Notes under the pieces: model-generated
What the model was told of the DNA's origin: nothing
The model's input: the letters and a program-made list of their open reading frames with translations, nothing else
The model's database searches: none
Translations under genes and position numbers: made by a program
NCBI RefSeq assembly: GCF_900107545.1
Contig: NZ_FNQZ01000009.1
Location: 62,001-126,000 of the forward strand
Direction: 5' to 3'
Source of the DNA: Pseudobutyrivibrio sp. ACV-2
GTDB lineage: Bacteria > Bacillota > Clostridia > Lachnospirales > Lachnospiraceae
Length of the DNA: 64,000 bases
Part shown: positions 27,019 through 48,240 of the stretch, piece by piece
Position numbering within the stretch: the stretch's first letter is position 1
Layout: every line of letters begins with the position of its first letter

Positions 27019-27036
27019 CAACTCCTTCATTTTTAA

Positions 27037-27071
27037 AGGCTGCTATGAAAATTTACGTTTCATAGCAGCCT
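27037..27071 (+). terminator. Terminator after the amylase gene
   Basis: AGGCTGCTATGAAA pairs perfectly with TTTCATAGCAGCCT across a 7-nt loop and is followed by TTTATTATT. Confidence 0.88.
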
Positions 27072-27086
27072 TTATTATTCCCCTTT

Positions 27087-33608: not shown

Positions 33609-33985
33609 TTATAAATACTTTTTCTGCTCTGTAAATCCTCGTCCCTTTACCTCAGATACACGACTGACAATAATAAATGCCTCCGGATCTATTTGGTGGA
33701 CAAGTCGTTCTGCCTTTGCAAGCTCACGTGTAGAAACGATTGAAAGGCAAATCTCTGTATCTTTACCAAGATATCCTGTGCGACCATACATAACTGTAAC
33801 TCCGCGGTCCACATCCTGAAGAAGTCTTATCCAGTGTCATGGTGTAAATGACAACTAAAATAATGCCATAAAGCACTAATCTGTGATCAGTAAAAATAGC
33901 CTGAACACCAAGAATAATAATATCGCACACCCACATAAGACACCTGAAATAGATGTGCCGAAAAATTTATTCATAACAATTGGTA
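33609..33985 (-). pseudogene. YitT-family membrane protein remnant
   Basis: The last 67 residues (DRGVTVMYGRTGYLG, ICLSIVSTRELAKAERL, IDPEAFIIVSRVSEVKGRGF) are the C-terminal DUF2179 domain of YitT-like membrane proteins. Upstream pieces in other frames (MNKFFGTSISG, DHRLVLYGIILVVIYTMTLD) belong to the last membrane helices, so at least two frameshifts are present. The N-terminal half is gone, replaced by a TetR fragment. Non-functional. Confidence 0.75.
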
Positions 33986-33989
33986 TATT

Positions 33990-34333
33990 ACCGATACATG
34001 TGTTATCCCGTTTGCTTCATCAGGATATTCTCTGTCAAATAACGTTAATGCCGCATCCAGTATCTTCTCTTTGGTAGACATATCTTTCTCCATCAGCTCA
34101 GCTACTGCATCATTTACAATATCCTGTCCCCACTGCTTATGGTAATCGCACTTATGACCTGTGGTACCGGTGGGATGCTCGCAGGCATAATAAAAATAAT
34201 CTCTATAAGTACCACCTTTTGGATGTCTCTTACGATTTACATTGCCGTACATATTGGCACCACATCCTGGGCACTTTAAGATACCTGTCAAAATATGTTC
34301 ACGTTCAAGGCTATGCGTCTTAACGCGCTTCAC
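33990..34333 (-). pseudogene. Serine-recombinase zinc-ribbon fragment joined to a TetR fragment
   Basis: Residues 1-82 (HILTGILKCPGCGANMYGNV, then YFYYACEHPTGTTGHKC) are the zinc beta-ribbon domain of large serine recombinases, with four Cys as CPGC...C...C. The same frame then changes to MSTKEKILDAALTLFDREYPD, which is the start of a TetR-type regulator. The frame ends soon after. Neither part is complete. It is one of three separated recombinase fragments in this region. Confidence 0.7.
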
Positions 34334-35187
34334 TCCCCGTCCTGTGGTAATTTTCCAGATTCCTTTGCCAATTTCTTTTCCTCGGACTTAACCCTTCTTT
34401 CCAACTTTTTAATATCTTCCGAAGGCGGCAGTTCTTCCGGTTTAATTCCTCTTGTGCCAAGCATTTCACGTACAGATAAATTATTCTGTACATGCTCAGT
34501 CGTAATTGCACCTTCCCCCTGTAAATCTTTTTCTTCAACATTGTAATTTGTCATTTCAGTTGCAAGATTCTTAGCCGCAATTGTCAGCGTTGGTAAAAAA
34601 TCAGCTAAAGGCCTTTTATCACTAACTCCTAATTTTTTCTTCATATCCTGTGTCGATTTTCCACCAAATAAAGCCTGGTCGCCTCTTGATCTAATGCGAC
34701 CAAAACCAGCATCATCTACACCGCGCTCATAGATATTTTGTGATAATCTTTTCTCCGATTCACGAAGTTTTCCTCTTGCCTCAGTCCTTTCAATATACGC
34801 AATTCTTTCTTCAAGCAGTTCCTGTTTTCTTGTCTGAACCGCAAAATAACTTTGTGCAAAGGCAATCTCCTCTTTTCTCGGATCGCCATTCTGAGCAATA
34901 AGATAACATGCATATCTGGTAAGCATCATATCTTCTTTTTCTCTCATGGCTCCACTACCTATCTCAACCATTTTGCCGGCGCCGGCAAAATGGTCAGACA
35001 CCTCTATTTCTGCACTTTCACAAGATTCCTTCGCTCTTTCAATAGCTTCCTTAAAACGTCTCCATGTTGCATACCCCAAACACTCCATCAATTCCCTTGC
35101 ATACCAAAATTCAACGCTTCCGTCTTCTGTTATATGCATAATATCATCAAAGGTCTTTTTCATAGTCATAATAGTTTTTTTATCCAT
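34330..35187 (-). CDS. dinD: DinD-like DNA-damage-inducible protein / antirepressor-like
   Basis: 285 residues, apparently full length. The N-terminal Bro-N-like part (SVEFWYARELMECLGYATWR and FKEAIERAKESCE) is followed by the DinD core LTRYACYLIAQNGDPRKEEI, then AFAQSYFAVQTRKQE and LFGGKSTQDMKKKLGVS. In E. coli DinD is SOS-induced and inhibits RecA filament processes; relatives often sit on mobile DNA. Residues 65-74 (DHFAGAGKMV) are encoded by a 28-bp perfect palindrome. AAGGGGTG precedes the ATG. No LexA-type box is seen upstream, but another 28-bp near-palindrome lies at 35228-35255. Confidence 0.85.
   Translation of the reverse strand: MDKKTIMTMKKTFDDIMHITEDGSVEFWYARELMECLGYATWRRFKEAIERAKESCESAEIEVSDHFAGAGKMVEIGSGAMREKEDMMLTRYACYLIAQNGDPRKEEIAFAQSYFAVQTRKQELLEERIAYIERTEARGKLRESEKRLSQNIYERGVDDAGFGRIRSRGDQALFGGKSTQDMKKKLGVSDKRPLADFLPTLTIAAKNLATEMTNYNVEEKDLQGEGAITTEHVQNNLSVREMLGTRGIKPEELPPSEDIKKLERRVKSEEKKLAKESGKLPQDGE
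34967..34994. repeat. 28-bp perfect palindrome inside dinD
   Basis: ACCATTTTGCCGGC followed by its exact reverse complement. It spans codons 65-74 of dinD. GC-rich centre in an AT-rich gene. See the palindromes at 38090 (rhuM) and 41722 (ORF6N). Confidence 0.97.
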
Positions 35188-35227
35188 TGTTTATACACCC
35201 CTTTTCAAAATCACAAAATTAGCGCCC

Positions 35228-35255
35228 TTAAAGTAGTCGAATTCGACCACTTTAA
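35228..35255. repeat. 28-bp near-palindrome upstream of dinD
   Basis: TTAAAGTAGTCGAA followed by TTCGACCACTTTAA; all positions pair except one (A/C). It lies 41 bp before the dinD start codon and is a candidate operator. Confidence 0.8.
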
Positions 35256-35372
35256 TCTTCTTTCTTCTCTTGTCTCATCTGCTCCATCCGCACATAATAT
35301 ACCAGCAGCCGCAGCAAGTATTTAGTAACACGCTTTTTGCCATGCTCCCAGTCACTTACTGTCATATATGGA
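35252..35372 (-). pseudogene. Fragment of a small mobile-element DNA-binding protein
   Basis: About 40 residues: IPYMTVSDWEHGKKRVTKYL, then LRLLVYYVRMEQMRQEKKED and stop. The DWEHG...YLLRLL pattern resembles the C-terminal part of XRE/DUF-type regulators found on integrative elements. The N-terminus is missing and the sequence is joined directly to a methyltransferase remnant. Confidence 0.45.
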
Positions 35373-35779
35373 ATTTCAAAGTACTCACAATTACGCGGCC
35401 GACTCTGTTGTGCTTTGCAATGGACAAAACACCCTTCTTCTTTAGAACTCTCGTCAAAGCCTTTACCGCAGTTTCTTTATCATCAATGTATTCCAACACA
35501 TTGTGACATATAATAATATCAAAAGTCTCGTCCTCAAACATAGACAAAGCATTAACATCTCCGACAATCTGATTGTATTCATTATCTTTCCAAGCATTAG
35601 AAAGCATTTTCTCAGATGGTTCTATGGCAGTGACATCATTTTTCTCAGCAAAGTGATTTGAAGTAATTCCTTCGCCACTACCAAAATCAAGAATCTTTTT
35701 TCCTTCTATGTTACCCAGCTGTTTCCATACTATTTTTTAACAATCTCTCCCATGCAGGAAACTCTGTAATATCGTGCAT
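35362..35779 (-). pseudogene. Class I SAM-dependent methyltransferase remnant
   Basis: MHDITEFPAWERLLKN starts at 35779; after a frameshift with a stop the frame continues WKQLGNIEGKKILDFGSGEG, then NDVTAIEPSEKMLSNAW, FDIIICHNVLEYIDD and LTRVLKKKGVLSIAKHN. These are motifs I to IV of a SmtA-like small-molecule methyltransferase. The C-terminal third is missing, ending in unrelated sequence near 35362. It is not a DNA methyltransferase. Function lost. Confidence 0.7.
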
Positions 35780-35799
35780 ATTTGTCAGTCTCCAATTTC

Positions 35800-36135
35800 T
35801 TATATCATCTTAAACGCTTTCAGTGCTTCCACAATAGCATCTTCCTTTTCCTTCGGACACTGTGGCTGTCTAGCATCCTCAGACTTAGGCAGATTAAAAT
35901 TTTCTGCCAATTTCAATCCGCATTTTCTCTTAACCTGAGCTATATAAAGACTCGAAACCTTCATCCCATCATTATGCTCTGCAACATACTTCTTTATCTT
36001 TTCGTAGGTTGCCTTTGTCTCAGCAGAAGCCCCTTCCAGTTCAGCTACATCCACATCTACATGAATATAATCATCCGGCTTCTGGCGAAGTTGGGAAAGA
36101 AGTACAACCGTCTCGACTGTTGTTTACTTGAGCAA
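35800..36135 (-). pseudogene. C-terminal remnant of a second RlmD-type rRNA methyltransferase
   Basis: VETVVLLSQLRQKPDDYIHV leads into an 84-residue tail with ATYEKIKKYVAEHNDGMKVS, SLYIAQVKRKCGL and NFNLPKSEDARQPQCPKEKE. VETVVLLSQL is the C-terminal end of the catalytic domain of RlmD (23S rRNA U1939 methyltransferase), and the tail is the extension seen on many Lachnospiraceae RlmD proteins. The catalytic domain is missing. The intact rlmD at 43.6 kb ends without this tail. Confidence 0.65.
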
Positions 36136-36179
36136 CCGAGTTTCATAATATCTACCGCTATATGCGAGACTTAAATATA

Positions 36180-36935
36180 TTACTTCTTTTGGATTACCGT
36201 ATTTATACCGATTGGCTTAAATCCGACGCTGAGAGCCGTTTTCTGTGAACCTGTATTCGTTTCAGCATGAGCCCATACAGGTCTTCTGCCCTGCCGCATG
36301 ATTTCCTCACACATCTTGTATGCCAGATAGGATGCCAGACCATGGTGTCTGTGCGTTTCAGCTGTCTCAACACCAATATCCACTTCCTCCGGACCGACCG
36401 CACTTGAAAACGCCACGGCTGCAAAACTGCCATCTTCCTTACTTCTGGCCATAAATCCAAATCCGTTCCGCAAAAATACATCTCTATCTTTCCATGAAAA
36501 AGATGGCGTAATCCTTCCCTGAATGACACCTATATTGACTGCAGTTATGCGTTCAATAACAAAGCCGGCATCAAGTTCCGGTTGTTTTTCAATGATTCCG
36601 CCATGCGTGTATTCAATCCTTTTATCAACTCGGAGCAAGTCTCTGCCTGAATAATAGTCCGAAACAGACTTCAAATCTGTAATGAGTAAAAATCTTCGCT
36701 CCGTATCAGACACCAAAAAACTTCGATATACTTCTTCAAGAACATCTGTGCTCACATCCCCGGAGATATACGCAAAGCCGCAATAATGCCAAAACAATAC
36801 ACAGCCTTTGCCATCAACATAAATATCTCCATCCTGAGTCCCGGTCGCAATTGATAAAGGATAAACCCGGTTAGCCGGGCATTCGTTAGCACATTTAATA
36901 TATTCTTTGTATCTGTTTCTATCAACTTTATTCAA
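36180..36935 (-). CDS. GNAT-family N-acetyltransferase
   Basis: 251 residues. The C-terminal half contains the acetyl-CoA fold: AAVAFSSAVGPEEVDIGVET, then RHHGLASYLAYKMCEEIM (motif A, HHGLAS) and TNTGSQKTALSVGF (motif B). The N-terminal half (1-110) is less typical and may hold the substrate site; the family looks like GNAT_acetyltr-type proteins of Clostridia. Start is TTG with AGAGGTG 7 bp upstream. It is a complete gene surrounded by broken ones and reads slightly more GC-rich than its neighbours, which suggests cargo. Confidence 0.8.
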   Translation of the reverse strand: MNKVDRNRYKEYIKCANECPANRVYPLSIATGTQDGDIYVDGKGCVLFWHYCGFAYISGDVSTDVLEEVYRSFLVSDTERRFLLITDLKSVSDYYSGRDLLRVDKRIEYTHGGIIEKQPELDAGFVIERITAVNIGVIQGRITPSFSWKDRDVFLRNGFGFMARSKEDGSFAAVAFSSAVGPEEVDIGVETAETHRHHGLASYLAYKMCEEIMRQGRRPVWAHAETNTGSQKTALSVGFKPIGINTVIQKK

Positions 36936-37084
36936 CGAAATACACCTCTATATAATCTCGCTCATTTATTAACCTTCTCGAATCGCACGCGAATAAGAAA
37001 ACATAAGACAAGTCACGCGTTATTTTCAAATATCGGATTGACATTTTTCCTTTATCACCATAAACCGGAAGTGCGAATCTTGAG

Positions 37085-37294
37085 TCATATCTTCATATTG
37101 TTGAAAGCTACACGCCCTTCTATTGATTTACCGGACTTGCCGGCATCTTCATATTCTCGGGCGATTTCATAATCATTAAATTCGCAGAAAGCTTTCATTC
37201 TTGATTTCTGTGCATCCAAAGAATAGTCATCTATCTGCATAGATGTGGAAACACGGGTATATAAATAGACCTTAATCTTTTTATTCTTTTCCAT
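37085..37294 (-). pseudogene. Large serine recombinase, N-terminal fragment
   Basis: About 69 residues: VYLYTRVSTSMQIDDYSLDA, then RMKAFCEFNDYEIAREYED and GKSGKSIEGRVAF. This is the start of the resolvase catalytic domain with the nucleophile Ser in RVSTS and Arg beside it. The frame ends at NNMKI where the full protein would continue. AGGTGA is 6 bp before the ATG at 37294. It overlaps the end of rhuM by 14 nt. It cannot be catalytically active alone. Confidence 0.8.
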
Positions 37295-38312
37295 TTGATT
37301 CACCTATCATTTTTTTAACTGCTTTGTCAAAATCTGACTCAATAGGTTGGGTCTTATTAAACGTATCATATTCTTTATAAGCTTTATCTATCGCCTGCTT
37401 GTGGGTTATTCTTCCATTGTCCTTCAATATTTTGTACTGTCTAAACTCAAGAAACGCATTAACGCTTTTTTCAAATTCTTCCATGGTAAATACATTCTCT
37501 CGTTCAATAAGATCCTCAATATAATCAAAGTAACCTGTAACTGCACGCTCTAATTGTCGAATCTGTTTCTCTTCCAAATAGTTTTTTGCGACAGATACAT
37601 CAGATTTTAAAATTCGTCCATCCGGTGCATTTTTCCATGTAGTGAGTCCCATATGTTCTTTATTATGGTCTGCTGATTTGTACACAATCTCAGCCGCTGT
37701 ATTATTAGTAATTGCGTAATGAAACTTGTTTTGTATAGTGGCATAGAAATGATATGCCACTTCTGAATCTTTAGTATAGTCAATGCTGCATTCCGCAAAG
37801 ATGTCAGTAATCTGTTGCCATATACGCCTTTCGCTAGCACGGATAGAACGAACTCGTTCCAACAATTCGTGAAAATAATCTTTTCCAAAAGCAGTTTTTC
37901 CTTGTTTCAATCTATCATCATCAAGAACAAATCCTTTGGTCATATATTCCTTTAAGACTTTTGTAGCCCAGATACGAAAATGGGTTGCTTTAATTGAATT
38001 CACTCTGTATCCAACGGAGATAATAGCGTCCAAATTATAATACATGCTATCATTTTCTTGAGTTTTACCTTCTATAGCACCATGAGGATTGGTTGTTGCA
38101 AATTTTGCAACAACCACTTCCTTTTTCAATTCACCACTCTTAAATATTTTATTTAAATGTCTGCTTATACCTGATTTATCAATCCCAAAAAGTTTTGCCA
38201 TGGATTTTTGTGTAATCCAAAGGCTCTCATCTACAATATAAGCATCTACAGAAACATCCCCTTCAGCAGAATGATAAAGAACCATTTCCATCTGTTTATC
38301 AAAACTATCCAT
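37281..38312 (-). CDS. rhuM: RhuM-family protein (Bro-N/antirepressor-like)
   Basis: 343 residues, full length. Family landmarks: LWITQKSMAKLFGIDKSGIS, then RHLNKIFKSGELKKE (helix-turn-helix-like N-terminus), YYNLDAIISVGYRVNS, FRIWATKVLKEYMTKGFVLD and FHELLERVRSIRASERRIWQ. RhuM was named on a Salmonella pathogenicity island; the molecular function is not known to me, though the N-terminal part is DNA-binding in type. Residues 66-75 (VVVAKFATTN) are encoded by a 27-bp palindrome. GGAGG precedes the ATG. Frequently carried on mobile elements near toxin-antitoxin or restriction genes, as here. Confidence 0.9.
   Translation of the reverse strand: MDSFDKQMEMVLYHSAEGDVSVDAYIVDESLWITQKSMAKLFGIDKSGISRHLNKIFKSGELKKEVVVAKFATTNPHGAIEGKTQENDSMYYNLDAIISVGYRVNSIKATHFRIWATKVLKEYMTKGFVLDDDRLKQGKTAFGKDYFHELLERVRSIRASERRIWQQITDIFAECSIDYTKDSEVAYHFYATIQNKFHYAITNNTAAEIVYKSADHNKEHMGLTTWKNAPDGRILKSDVSVAKNYLEEKQIRQLERAVTGYFDYIEDLIERENVFTMEEFEKSVNAFLEFRQYKILKDNGRITHKQAIDKAYKEYDTFNKTQPIESDFDKAVKKMIGESNGKE
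38090..38116. repeat. 27-bp perfect palindrome inside rhuM
   Basis: TGGTTGTTGCAAA, one central T, then the exact reverse complement. It covers codons 66-75. Confidence 0.97.
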
Positions 38313-38369
38313 AAAACTATTCCTCCGTTTTTTACAATTTTTAAGTCTAAATATATTGGCCCTTTGAGA

Positions 38370-38732
38370 CTACATATCTTCAAGACTTTCTATCTTCTTC
38401 AGTGCTTCCATATAAGCCATAAGACGCTTCTGCTGTTCTTCCTTGAGATTATGATAATCTTCAATCATATGAACATCCCCGGGAGTAAATTTGTTTTCAG
38501 GACTTGCTACAGCAATTTCCTCTTCATCCTCAATTCCTTTACCAGTAAGAAGTTGCTCAGGAGTAATTTGCAAAACATTACAGATGTCCATTATCTTTTC
38601 TACAGTAGGATTAGTCTTTCTCTTTTTCCATTCGCTTATGGTACTGGTTGAAATACCTACCTGCTTTGCAAACTCCGCCTGAGTCATATTGCGTTCTTTC
38701 AAAACCTTTATAATTCTTTCACTGATAATCAT
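38370..38732 (-). CDS. XRE-family transcriptional regulator
   Basis: 120 residues. N-terminal Cro/CI helix-turn-helix: RIIKVLKERNMTQAEFAKQV, then GISTSTISEWKKRKTNPT, followed by IMDICNVLQITPEQLLTGKG. The C-terminal helix (LKEEQQKRLMAYMEALKKI) probably mediates dimerisation. A truncated relative lies at 42053. CGAGGT precedes the ATG. The perfect inverted repeat ATTCAT-ATAG-ATGAAT 35 bp upstream is a likely auto-operator. Confidence 0.92.
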   Translation of the reverse strand: MIISERIIKVLKERNMTQAEFAKQVGISTSTISEWKKRKTNPTVEKIMDICNVLQITPEQLLTGKGIEDEEEIAVASPENKFTPGDVHMIEDYHNLKEEQQKRLMAYMEALKKIESLEDM

Positions 38733-38766
38733 GAGTGATACCTCGCTTGCTGTTCACTTATATAAC

Positions 38767-38782
38767 ATTCATATAGATGAAT
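38767..38782. promoter_or_regulatory. Putative operator of the XRE regulator
   Basis: ATTCAT, ATAG, ATGAAT: a perfect 6-bp inverted repeat upstream of the regulator gene, the size expected for a Cro/CI dimer. Confidence 0.5.
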
Positions 38783-38817
38783 TCATTTTATCACACCTCA
38801 TGCTATCCATCAATGTT

Positions 38818-39012
38818 CTACTTCGTTTCCCTATTACGGAACTTCATATACGCCTTATAAGATTCATATATATATCTTCTTTGAAGATAGACATCAGGAT
38901 CCGGTAATAAATCAAAATCAATTTCATAAGCGTATTTTGCTATTATATTTTCGATAAAGTTTGCATGAGAACTCCTTTCATCTTTGTCTTTTACTATCAC
39001 TTTATTCTTCAC
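38818..39012 (-). CDS. Small hydrophilic protein of unknown function
   Basis: About 64 residues from a GTG at 39012 preceded by GGAAGGGG (MKNKVIVKDKDERSSHANFI, then ENIIAKYAYEIDFDLLPDPD and VYLQRRYIYESYKAYMKF). An in-frame ATG at 39069 has no ribosome site. It is charged, probably helical and cytoplasmic. No family recognised. It lies downstream of the DUF262 gene and could be its partner or a regulator; this rests on position only. Confidence 0.5.
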   Translation of the reverse strand: MKNKVIVKDKDERSSHANFIENIIAKYAYEIDFDLLPDPDVYLQRRYIYESYKAYMKFRNRETK

Positions 39013-39144
39013 AGCTATCCCCTTCCTTAAATGACATTTTAGGTCTTTCACAAATTGCAAGCAGTGCAAAGGGCCTGACCCTCAAGTCAGACCCTCAAAA
39101 TGCTTGGCAAACCCTCAAAAAGTTTGATTATCCTGATGTTTATG

Positions 39145-40863
39145 TCAAACCAAAATGGTTTTTAGCTGCATACTCATCAATTCCTGTCTCTTCTGCATAA
39201 ACTCTTCAAAGTTGAACAGATCATACGATATTCCATCAGGCAGATATTTCACATTATCCTTGTTTTCTGGTTCTTTAAGCCATTCCACCAGTGGCGTAGC
39301 ATTCTTTGACTCATTTTCCCTTCCTTCAAGCAACTGAAGATTAGCAAGTGTATTCCTCCGCCTTCTCCAATCTTCCTTTGTATCATCATCTATCACACTT
39401 CCATTTGGAAGAACTAGATTTTTAATCTTTTCCTCTTCAAATCCTGTATACGGATGCATATGATCTTGATGGAAGCCCTTCTGACTATACTTAAGATTCG
39501 GATACAGAAGGGACAGAAGCATGAATGTATAAGCACCTATTTCGTAGCTATCAAACATTGCATCCACTTCCTCCGGCGTGTACTTCAATGTTCTATCTCC
39601 AGTAAATCTCACACCCTTAAGATTGTTCATAGAGAACGTATCTGCCGGAGCTTTCTTTAATGCCTCTCTTATGCCTGTAAGCGCAGAATTAGATGCCGTA
39701 CCAAATATCTGCTTAACCTGAGCAATAACAATGTATTTCCTTAATTCTGCTTTGCTTTCGGCATCATAGTTGCCACCCTTATAGCGATAGTAAACCATAG
39801 GTGAAACCGCAACATATGAAATGATATTCTCAGAATTGAATCCAAATTCATTCAAAAGGTTAACAGTATCCTTTATAGCCTTTTTTATACTATCCCAGTT
39901 ATCTCTAATTTGTAGTACGCTTTCTTTCTTAAATGTCTCCACCTTTAATGTAACTGACATATCAAGTAAATAAAGACAAGTTCTCATAATGAAATCATTT
40001 GTAAACTTATAGCCCTCACCCGTCTTATTTATTTCAGCAAGTAACTTATCTATCTCGTCCCTCGCTTTATCCCAGTGAGATACAATCGTTGAAAACAAAA
40101 GATCACTCTTAGATAAAACAGTTCCGCCAGAGTTAACTCTTACAAATATGTCCAGGACGCTGTCGATAGAATCTTTTTCCACTTCAAAATAATTGATTAT
40201 CTGGTCACCCACCAGCCTTGTATGGAGCAATGAGATATTCTTACTAGCAATTTTATCTGTCGCCCACCCATTAGGAAGAATTATCTCCGTAACCAAATCC
40301 TCCGCTGAATACTTCAAAATATCCTTAACTAAGAACCAAAGTTTCCCATCTTTATGATTTTCAGCATCCTCTTTGGTCAAAAACTTAAACTCATATGAAA
40401 TATCGTCGTCATCAGTTCTTTCGCTATGCAAATCAAAATATAATTCCTTTTTAGGAAAAGCATCGTCATTCTTCCATCTCTTGTTAGGGAGCTTTCTGCT
40501 CATACTTCCCTGTAAAGCGATATACAAGGACGTCAAACGCTGTTGCCCATCCAGGACGGCCCATATCGTTTCATCTGGACTTCCTATTGGAAATGGTTGA
40601 GGGGCTGAAGGATTCTTGTACATATCCCGGTCATGATAATCTTTTATGAACTCATACATAGAGTATTCTTTTTGATTGATTACCGTCTTCTTAACCTTCC
40701 AAAACAGAAAAGTCCCTATAGGATACCCAAGCATAATAGAGTCCATAAGTCGGACAATCTGATCATCTCCCCAGACATATTTTCTCTGTATCGCAGGTAG
40801 ATATATTTTTCTTGAGTTGATATCCTCTATTACATCTCTGATACTTTTCTTTTCATAAGCCAT
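39145..40863 (-). CDS. DUF262/DUF1524 protein, GmrSD-like restriction candidate
   Basis: 572 residues. The N-terminal DUF262 (GmrS-like, ParB-fold NTPase) shows IYLPAIQRKYVWGDDQIVRL, PIGTFLFWKV and the hallmark WAVLDGQQRLTSLY. The C-terminal domain contains HQDHMHPYTGF and RRRNTLANLQLLEGRENESK, an HNH-type DUF1524 (GmrD-like) nuclease with His, Asn and the terminal RN...N pattern. Single-chain GmrSD proteins are type IV restriction enzymes cutting modified (for example glucosylated hydroxymethyl) phage DNA. No partner methylase is present, as expected for type IV. GGGAGGAG precedes the ATG. A defence role is well supported by family, unproven here. Confidence 0.85.
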   Translation of the reverse strand: MAYEKKSIRDVIEDINSRKIYLPAIQRKYVWGDDQIVRLMDSIMLGYPIGTFLFWKVKKTVINQKEYSMYEFIKDYHDRDMYKNPSAPQPFPIGSPDETIWAVLDGQQRLTSLYIALQGSMSRKLPNKRWKNDDAFPKKELYFDLHSERTDDDDISYEFKFLTKEDAENHKDGKLWFLVKDILKYSAEDLVTEIILPNGWATDKIASKNISLLHTRLVGDQIINYFEVEKDSIDSVLDIFVRVNSGGTVLSKSDLLFSTIVSHWDKARDEIDKLLAEINKTGEGYKFTNDFIMRTCLYLLDMSVTLKVETFKKESVLQIRDNWDSIKKAIKDTVNLLNEFGFNSENIISYVAVSPMVYYRYKGGNYDAESKAELRKYIVIAQVKQIFGTASNSALTGIREALKKAPADTFSMNNLKGVRFTGDRTLKYTPEEVDAMFDSYEIGAYTFMLLSLLYPNLKYSQKGFHQDHMHPYTGFEEEKIKNLVLPNGSVIDDDTKEDWRRRRNTLANLQLLEGRENESKNATPLVEWLKEPENKDNVKYLPDGISYDLFNFEEFMQKRQELMSMQLKTILV

Positions 40864-40934
40864 GATAGTTCTCCTCCCTGTGTATCTTCAATTATATTTC
40901 CTTTGCCCCTTAATGGGATTATACCCCAACATAC

Positions 40935-40977
40935 CAAAAGGCCTCCACCGGCGTGTAAAATATGCCCGTAGAAGCCT
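40935..40977 (-). terminator. Terminator after the recombinase tail remnant
   Basis: Leftward AGGCTTCTACGGGC and GCCGGTGGAGGCCT pair at 13 of 14 positions including G-U pairs, then TTTTGG. Confidence 0.65.
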
Positions 40978-41034
40978 CTTAATATCCTTTACGCCTTATT
41001 TATGTGTTTAACTTTATAACTAACTCGGAATCTC

Positions 41035-41705
41035 TTATTCCTGCCCCTTCTCCGCATCCTTAATCTTGTAGTAATCCTCTACATCCAAGCCAAGATCCAC
41101 ATGAGATTTCGACCTTGTAACTGTTTTACCCATGAGAACCACAGTTTCAGCTTGACTTCCATTGTCCAAGAAAATCTTCATCTCTTTTTTGATGATAAGA
41201 AGCTTGAATTCTATCGACTTTAGCCATTGTCCATTAAGCTGCTTTTCAGGATAGATTTCTACTTTCGAAACAAGTTGCTCGATGATTGTCCTGCGTTCTT
41301 CTTCATTCAGCTTATCTATAAGTTTATCAAAATAGATAAGTGATTTGTATACATTATCCGCAGATGTTTTTCTCTCTGCAATTGAATGGCGCTTCTTTCT
41401 AGCTTCATTCAGTGCAGCTTCTAACTCATCAAGAGAATCATAAATATCGTATAAACGTTTTTGCAAATCCTCTTTTTTACGAGAATAATGCTTATCTGAT
41501 ACATCTAATGAATTCATATCCGACAATATATCACTTTTGATATTATCGAAATGCTGTTGCCTACCCTCAAGTGCTGTAATCTCTTCATCAATAGCTGAAA
41601 CATCTACTTTAGATTTAATCAATCCCCTCATTTGTGCCGCATATTCCGGTCTACTTACAAGGCTTGAAATAACCTCTAATACTGCGCTATCAAGCTTTTT
41701 CCTCT
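41035..41705 (-). pseudogene. Large serine recombinase, C-terminal coiled-coil fragment
   Basis: From about 41705 the frame reads LDSAVLEVISSLVSRPEYAA, then MRGLIKSKVDVSAIDEEITA, a long coiled coil (KKEDLQKRLYDIYDSLDELE) and IYFDKLIDKLNEEERRTIIE, IEYPEK-like KVEIYPEKQLNGQWLKSIEF. This is the tail of a Tn4451/TnpX-like recombinase after the zinc ribbon. The catalytic domain is absent; upstream it is fused to ORF6N sequence. An ATG at 41631 exists but there is no evidence of a separate functional protein. Confidence 0.7.
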
Positions 41706-41999
41706 TCCTTTTTCATCATCGTTCAAGGTGAAATTTTTGCACCTTGAAAGTTCTTCCACTTCCTCATCAGTAAGTTCAAACATAAAATCTTCGCCCAAAA
41801 ATTTTTTAATATTGTTCTTCACTTGTCTATTGAGTTTTTTTGTTTCATAGCCATATATTTAAGCCAAATCAAAATCAAGCATTACTTTTTGATTTCTTAT
41901 AATATAGGTTCTCTCCCTGATTACTTCTTCAGAAATAACAAGGATATCCTTATCGATTTCTTCAACTGTATCCACTTCATTCTTTTTAGTTTTTGCCAT
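41700..41999 (-). pseudogene. ORF6N-domain antirepressor remnant
   Basis: From ATG 41999 (GGAAAG upstream): RTYIIRNQKVMLDFDLA, TAA stop, IYGYETKKLNRQVKNNIKKF, then LGEDFMFELTDEEVEELSRC and KNFTLNDDEKGRG. These are the ORF6N motifs (VMLDxDLAxLYGVETKxLNxxVKRN, FPxDFMFxLT). It has one in-frame stop and is cut off after GRG, where recombinase tail sequence begins. Codons 84-92 are covered by a 27-bp degenerate palindrome, and a similar palindrome precedes the start codon. Confidence 0.8.
41722..41748. repeat. 27-bp degenerate palindrome inside the ORF6N remnant
   Basis: TTCAAGGTG and CACCTTGAA flank AAATTTTTG; 11 of 13 position pairs match around a single central base. Same size and symmetry type as the palindrome in rhuM. 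Confidence 0.9.
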
Positions 42000-42014
42000 A
42001 TTTCTTTCCAACAT

Positions 42015-42039
42015 TTGAGGTCGAAAATTTCTACCTCAA
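42015..42039. repeat. 25-bp palindrome upstream of the ORF6N remnant
   Basis: TTGAGGTCGAAA, central A, TTTCTACCTCAA; one mismatched pair. It ends 15 bp before the ATG. The pattern AGGT-N-AAAATTT-N-ACCT is shared with the internal palindrome at 41722, as expected of an operator bound by the same protein. Confidence 0.85.
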
Positions 42040-48210: not shown

Positions 48211-48240
48211 AGAGCTCGGCAAAATTTTGCCGAGCTCTTT
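48211..48240. terminator. Palindromic bidirectional terminator
   Basis: AGAGCTCGGCAAAA followed by its exact reverse complement (28 bp), with T residues after it on the plus strand. It serves the GH42 gene and probably also the convergent DUF4097 gene. Confidence 0.85.

Follow-up and report, generated by a model that had tools for sequence, protein, structure and literature searches.

Palindromes inside dinD, rhuM and ORF6N genes as probable operators of the genes' own products

Why should genes of several regulator-like families each carry a palindrome within their coding sequence, at a corresponding place in the protein? The question is raised by a stretch of 64,000 nucleotides from Pseudobutyrivibrio sp. 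ACV-2 (contig NZ_FNQZ01000009.1, positions 62,001 to 126,000; hereafter the window, to which all coordinates refer), which holds a dinD gene, a rhuM gene, and the remnant of an ORF6N gene, all on the minus strand. The families concerned are RhuM (PF13310), DinD (NF008573), Bro-N (PF02498), ORF6N (PF10543), and KilA-N (PF04383), of which dinD and rhuM encode members and the ORF6N gene is a relic. dinD (34330..35187) encodes a 285-residue protein that matches the DNA damage-inducible protein D family over its full length (370.7 bits against a curated cut-off of 242, E 4.9e-111) and contains a Bro-N domain (E 3.6e-11); its internal palindrome, ACCATTTTGCCGGCGCCGGCAAAATGGT, is perfect over 28 bp (34967..34994, codons 65-74). 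rhuM (37281..38312) encodes a 343-residue protein of the Virulence_RhuM family (338.8 bits against a gathering score of 33.7, E 2.2e-101) and contains TGGTTGTTGCAAANTTTGCAACAACCA (38090..38116, codons 66-75), with 13-bp arms around one base. The third internal palindrome, in the ORF6N remnant (41706..42014), is degenerate and spans 27 bp (41722..41748). Comparison with homologues leads us to propose that the protein encoded by such a gene very probably uses the internal palindrome as its operator: the letters of the site change in step with the part of the gene that encodes the DNA-reading residues, as if each protein were made to bind the gene that encodes it.

We assembled 196 RhuM, 33 ORF6N, and 49 DinD distinct genes (L numbers denote loci and G numbers genomes), of which 190, 32, and 49, respectively, entered an analysis in which synonymous codons were reshuffled within each gene and palindromes were scored in site windows of 36 to 45 nt and control windows of 36 nt. 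An earlier note on this DNA had placed palindromes inside all three genes and upstream of dinD and of the ORF6N remnant, where the sequence and a scan of the 64 kb indeed locate them; it had also set beforehand, as a test, enrichment at the aligned position of homologous genes and symmetry above codon-shuffled controls, and both are observed. Among best palindromes scoring ≥9, 114/121 in RhuM, 32/32 in DinD, and 14/15 in ORF6N fall at one model column. Mean site scores are 8.98 versus 3.93 after shuffling for RhuM (n = 190), 7.94 versus 3.45 for ORF6N (n = 32), and 8.98 versus 3.59 for DinD (n = 49), with 84%, 66%, and 80% of single genes, respectively, at p ≤ 0.05. A site score of ≥9 is reached in 118/190 RhuM, 14/32 ORF6N, and 32/49 DinD genes, and in 0/449, 1/64, and 0/89 control windows of the same genes. 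Homologues, synonymous shuffles, and these other windows together rule out chance. The sequence of the site varies and its symmetry is kept: there are 145 distinct forms among the 190 RhuM genes, and in DinD relatives the palindrome keeps its place as its codons change in pairs (HF-R-E-V-T-KM, HF-V-E-V-N-KM, HF-P-E-V-R-KM, and HF-A-D-V-S-KM), the varying residues of these HF....KM motifs using reverse-complementary codons. Such a palindrome is also held by 66 of 1138 other open reading frames (ORFs) in the first 325 loci; among the matches listed (45 of those 66), several are further Bro-N/KilA-N members or frames antisense to a member.

The specificity of the site follows the recognition residues of the protein in RhuM, in DinD, and, for R, K, and E, in ORF6N. 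For RhuM, covariation was computed over 158 of the 190 genes, that is, the 167 with a score of ≥6 and an odd centre minus nine whose cores were seen fewer than three times. Mutual information with the core triplet of the site amounts to 1.64 bits at column 50 (the x of S-x-H) and to 1.36, 1.21, and 1.05 bits at columns 46, 47, and 44; the mean for columns outside 60-80 is 0.11 (standard deviation 0.17). Resolved by base, positions 3-5 of the site track columns 50, 47, 46, and 44, positions 7-8 most closely column 45, and positions 10-13 most closely column 83, as expected of a recognition helix that reads positions 3-8 and a wing that reads positions 10-13. The table relating the column 50 residue to the core is nearly deterministic: R occurs with GCA (29/29), Y with CGA (13/13), E with CGG (24) or AGG (3; n = 27), L with GAG (10) or AAG (3; n = 13), K with TCC (53) or GCA (15; n = 68), and Q with AAG (2) or GAG (1; n = 3). 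In the window, the predicted helix-turn-helix of rhuM (codons 35-59, 38136..38210, minus strand; helices 35-42 and 46-59) has R51 as the specificity residue in S-R-H, and the core of its palindrome is GCA, as this table leads one to expect.

The association also holds between matched relatives and in genes outside the original set. Once near-identical RhuM genes had been removed (>97%; >98.5% for the domain-matched set), core and column 50 were found to change together in two sets of independent pairs, 74 matched on the C-terminal region (p 2e-11) and 77 on the remainder of the DNA-binding domain (co-change counts 34,3/4,36; Fisher 5e-14). Three pairs with C-terminal regions 93 to 95% identical differ in both helix and site. 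In 33 additional RhuM genes (29 new ones from the phylum, four from plasmids), the site score is ≥6 in 31; with the two lower scorers and two genes whose residue was absent from training excluded, the core was predicted correctly in 28 of 29 (the miss being L498), on the understanding that three of the 33 had a helix-site combination seen earlier and that K, E, L, and Q were each allowed two cores. Permutation gave a mean of 8.9 and a maximum of 19 of 29 correct in 20000.

For DinD, the half-site corresponds to the form of the helix x-W-y-z-F (36 genes, including the site-less L316, L318, L319, and L322, a lineage in which the palindrome was lost, and the likewise site-less L380 from E. coli). 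RWENF is found with CGTGA or CGTGG, KWENF with CCTGA or CCCGA (L033 mixed), E/DWRNF with GTTGA, DWRNW (L324) with GTTGG, QWRNF with GCTGA, WDKF with TCCC, KWDNF with CCTGA or CCCGA, WRRF with GCCAA or GCCGG, and WRSF with GCGGA. The top four of 140 DinD columns by covariation (35 genes) are the columns of this helix, whose counterpart in the window is the stretch T41-W42-R43-R44-F45, assigned from the specificity columns, within a helix-turn-helix predicted by the structure model (codons 30-58, 35014..35100, minus strand). Across families, the bases that RhuM leads one to expect at positions 5 and 4 for R, K (taking its commoner core), and E are present in 13/13 ORF6N sites (permutation 0/10000); this test was run after the ORF6N table had been inspected and was scored on the R, K, and E sites, the seven sites with Q being set apart.

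Structure models of RhuM and DinD (mean predicted local distance difference test scores of 77.5 and 80.4) share an N-terminal order of helix, recognition helix, a strand largely encoded by the palindrome (residues 68-76 in RhuM and 67-76 in DinD, where the dinD palindrome would encode part of it), and a second strand. We propose that the N-terminal winged helix-turn-helix domain binds the internal palindrome, presumably as a dimer; counted from the dyad, bases 3-8 would be read by recognition-helix residues and bases 10-13 by the wing. Binding and dimerization are here inferred from computed position, symmetry, covariation, and site prediction. The site lies ≈60 to 85 bp from the recognition-helix codons, so that the reader is passed on along with its target; specificity could diversify or be exchanged with the pair staying matched.

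The earlier note had further supposed that these proteins bind the palindrome in their own gene, with the palindrome-coded peptide as a recognition loop that co-evolves with its target. Covariation of target and protein in RhuM, DinD, and ORF6N speaks for the co-evolving pair, and the proposed recogniser is not supported: specificity tracks helix residues ≈20 to 30 residues upstream, and the palindrome-coded stretch takes very different residues among homologues. Five of 169 RhuM sites with a score of ≥6 lie in the phase-2 frame, and four of these (L081, L086, L156, and L233) keep core and helix class and encode a different peptide. In the dinD gene of Zymomonas (L382), the palindrome, with a score of 7, is displaced downstream by a few codons and has the TTTTTCCC core of other WDKF genes. 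The palindrome-coded peptide thus looks like a largely passenger strand, not the reader.

The pattern extends beyond these three families. KilA-N genes, which the earlier note had grouped with them, show an internal palindrome in 10/15 mid-locus ORFs, and a Bro-N subfamily (L349 and L353) carries one as well; canonical phage Bro-N antirepressors, the class to which the earlier note had likened the three window genes, mostly have none, with the exception of L331 (score 9). In DUF1016/YhcG-type loci (L436-L465), a palindrome scoring ≥9 is present in 18/29 mid-locus ORFs, a few of them antisense, and lies mostly directly before the motif LSWSHY..LM; these genes look like a further case of an internal site. 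For Rha, five of 19 mid-locus ORFs score ≥9, two of which (L482 and L484) are ORF6N genes, and this lead was dropped. Two genes resembling type I specificity subunits (L203 at ORF residue 180 and L125 at residue 163) have a 33-bp palindrome in the stretch REIVRILDNFT. Several palindromes of differing classes occur in each of loci L182, L164, and L236, part of them probably within a second RhuM or DinD gene. In L318, where the internal site of dinD is lost, a perfect dinD-type palindrome is found elsewhere in the locus. The internal site of E. coli dinD (L380) has decayed, and upstream lies a box resembling what we take to be the LexA consensus.

As to purpose, we lean towards negative autoregulation, in which binding would block transcription within the gene; in some ORF6N genes, a second copy near the start would assist. 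An upstream copy with ≤4 mismatches is found in 5/24 ORF6N genes (0.15 expected), and a matching operator ≤300 bp upstream, as sought in a promoter-type repressor, is a feature of some ORF6N genes and not of RhuM and DinD. Several observations weigh against our reading of the internal sites. An upstream copy (≤4 mismatches) is found in only 1/162 RhuM genes within 300 bp and in 0/40 DinD genes, and RhuM upstream regions match their own sites no better than those of other genes (7.50 versus 7.51 mismatches), so that the layout usual for a repressor is missing and autoregulation would rest on the intragenic site. RhuM palindromes are of similar strength with and without an abutting upstream ORF (9.0 versus 9.16), on which ground a promoterless operon cassette as the cause of the internal site was rejected (an ORF ends ≤30 bp from the start or overlaps it in 47/175 RhuM genes with enough flank). 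Site scores are <6 in 21/190 RhuM, 8/32 ORF6N, and 9/49 DinD genes, the low scorers including the five site-less DinD genes listed above. The rule for Q fails to transfer, ORF6N pairing it with CAC (4) or CAA (3) and RhuM with the AAG or GAG already given. Covariation is weak in KilA-N (22 genes, four cores) and gave no helix signal in DUF1016 (15 genes), and the structure models are moderate (predicted template-modelling scores of 0.54 and 0.49). Finally, shared descent inflates covariation because helix and site are physically close, an effect lessened, though not removed, by the matching of pairs and by the cross-family test.

The rival that survives best, although we think it unlikely, is that the protein binds its own gene so as to find other copies, and silences, excludes, or cuts a related mobile element with the same helix and hence the same target, autoregulation not being its main task. 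In its favour is the uniqueness of the sites in this 3.66-Mb genome: the 17-bp core of the rhuM site has one exact match, in rhuM itself (four others have two mismatches), and the 20-bp core of the dinD site has one match within three mismatches, in dinD. The joint exchange of helix and site in the three RhuM pairs alike in their C-terminal regions is in keeping with it, as is the setting of the genes: in 3/4 annotated plasmid loci, RhuM lies within a type I restriction-modification operon and overlaps the end of the methylase gene, and in two of those three it also overlaps the start of the specificity gene. Pieces of serine recombinases touch the ends of both window genes, a zinc ribbon (33971-34333) at dinD and a resolvase N terminus (37085-37303) overlapping the end of rhuM. 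DUF1016 proteins, which we take to be nucleases, come from genes with the same feature; Pfam, however, finds no nuclease domain in any of the proteins scanned (RhuM, DinD, and two of the ORF6N family), and a protein that cut its own gene would harm itself.

A related and broader suggestion, which we put forward only tentatively, is a general self-addressing module, a reader-plus-target segment of ≈150 bp found in RhuM, DinD, ORF6N, and KilA-N genes, in some genes of the Bro-N type, and probably in those for DUF1016; the rule that links residue to base would be shared in part among these families. The gene that carries the reader also carries the address, and such cassettes could therefore recognise and act on their own copies (by silencing, exclusion, or, if the C terminus is a nuclease, cutting), a greenbeard at the level of DNA.

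That pairing in RNA or single-stranded DNA is what matters, with no sequence-specific protein reader, is very improbable. A hairpin would explain why symmetry is kept as the sequence changes and why the centre is loose, like a hairpin loop. Mismatches at arm positions 3-12, however, comprise 20 G.T and 46 A.C, the reverse of the tolerance of G-U expected of an mRNA hairpin, and on this pattern an mRNA element was rejected; moreover, RhuM mismatches cluster at position 8, and the core is predictable from the helix.

We attach equally little weight to the site belonging to a different regulator, be it a resident repressor, LexA, or the protein of a rival element. In one study (PMC3998124), LexA is reported to bind, in vitro, a site of a rhuM gene from the gut microbiome. 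Also in favour is the palindrome upstream of dinD (35228..35255, one mismatched pair), which is of the KilA-N type; the preferences of a foreign reader, however, should not vary with the recognition-helix residues of the gene that contains the site. The idea that the palindromes have no function and merely result from conserved protein motifs or from templated quasi-palindrome correction is hardly credible, for although HF....KM in DinD and V-x-A-K-F-A in RhuM predispose the DNA to symmetry and shuffled site means (3.45 to 3.93) are near or slightly above those of other windows (3.1 to 3.5), most of the score disappears when synonymous codons are reshuffled, the DNA but not the peptide is preserved at frame-shifted sites, and neither process ties core to helix.

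The remaining features of the window bear on its history. The five top palindrome scores in the 64 kb scan belong to two terminator-like hairpins (27034-27074, judged on the hairpin alone, and 48211-48238, followed by a T run), the internal sites of dinD and rhuM, and the palindrome upstream of dinD. We rejected the view that this last palindrome duplicates the DinD site; its match is with internal sites of KilA-N genes (TTTAAAGTGGTCGAATTCGACCACTTTAAA in L365; L428 also matches). It falls in a short frame, KIKVVEFDYFKGANFVILKRGV-stop, that is relic-like (35191-35271, KRRKKIKVVEFDYFKGANFVILKRGV-stop) and resembles the KilA-N site region; the frame is perhaps a relic of a KilA-N gene. In genome G041, a KilA-N gene stands directly upstream of dinD fragments. 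The ORF6N gene is a broken relic: it matches its family above the gathering score (78.8 bits, positions 2-68 of 86) and has an in-frame TAA at codon 52. By analogy with intact relatives, its recognition-helix stretch would be ETKKLNRQVKNN (41811..41846, minus strand), and its internal palindrome, at codons 84-93 from the MAKTKK start, lies beyond the stop of the frame. That palindrome is weak (score 7) and alone would not stand out in the scan; its core is GCA, like that of intact relatives with R in NRQ. Directly upstream of the remnant, a palindrome of the ORF6N type (AGGT..AAATTT..ACCT, 42015..42039) ranks eighth in the scan and differs from the internal site at 5 of 19 positions. The region as a whole looks like a decayed mobile island.

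If the internal palindromes are operators of their own genes' products, they offer a candidate molecular role for very common families whose annotation says no more than virulence protein RhuM, DNA damage-inducible protein D, ORF6N, or KilA-N. Throughout a family, a DNA site would here dictate protein sequence, and helix and site as a pair would constitute a natural code of recognition that can be read from the sequence by itself.

How do these genes compare with known systems? At E ≤ 0.001, the only PDB chains retrieved with the structure models are of DdrC from Deinococcus radiodurans (8u0g_B for RhuM, E 8.2e-4; six chains of 8u0g, 7udi, and 7qvb for DinD, best E 5.9e-7), with low whole-model TM-scores (by query length, 0.24 for RhuM and 0.27 to 0.37 for DinD); a sequence search against solved structures gave no convincing relative, the best E values (0.24, 0.25, and 0.0076) being to unrelated proteins. 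Search listings of open-licence PMC papers showed no description of an internal operator in these families. Autoregulated helix-turn-helix repressors have palindromic operators, and the genes described here resemble them in the helix-turn-helix protein, the palindromic site, and the covariation of residue and base. They differ in that the site is intragenic, at a fixed protein position, in several families, and usually without a matching copy in the 300 bp upstream. Intragenic sites are themselves familiar from lac O2 in lacZ and parS in spo0J of B. subtilis (a literature search for these returned no matches), in which a site within coding sequence is likewise read by a DNA-binding protein, in the case of spo0J that of the gene itself. 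Unlike lac O2 and parS, the sites considered here diverge throughout a family in step with the recognition helix, and they dictate the peptide that they encode.

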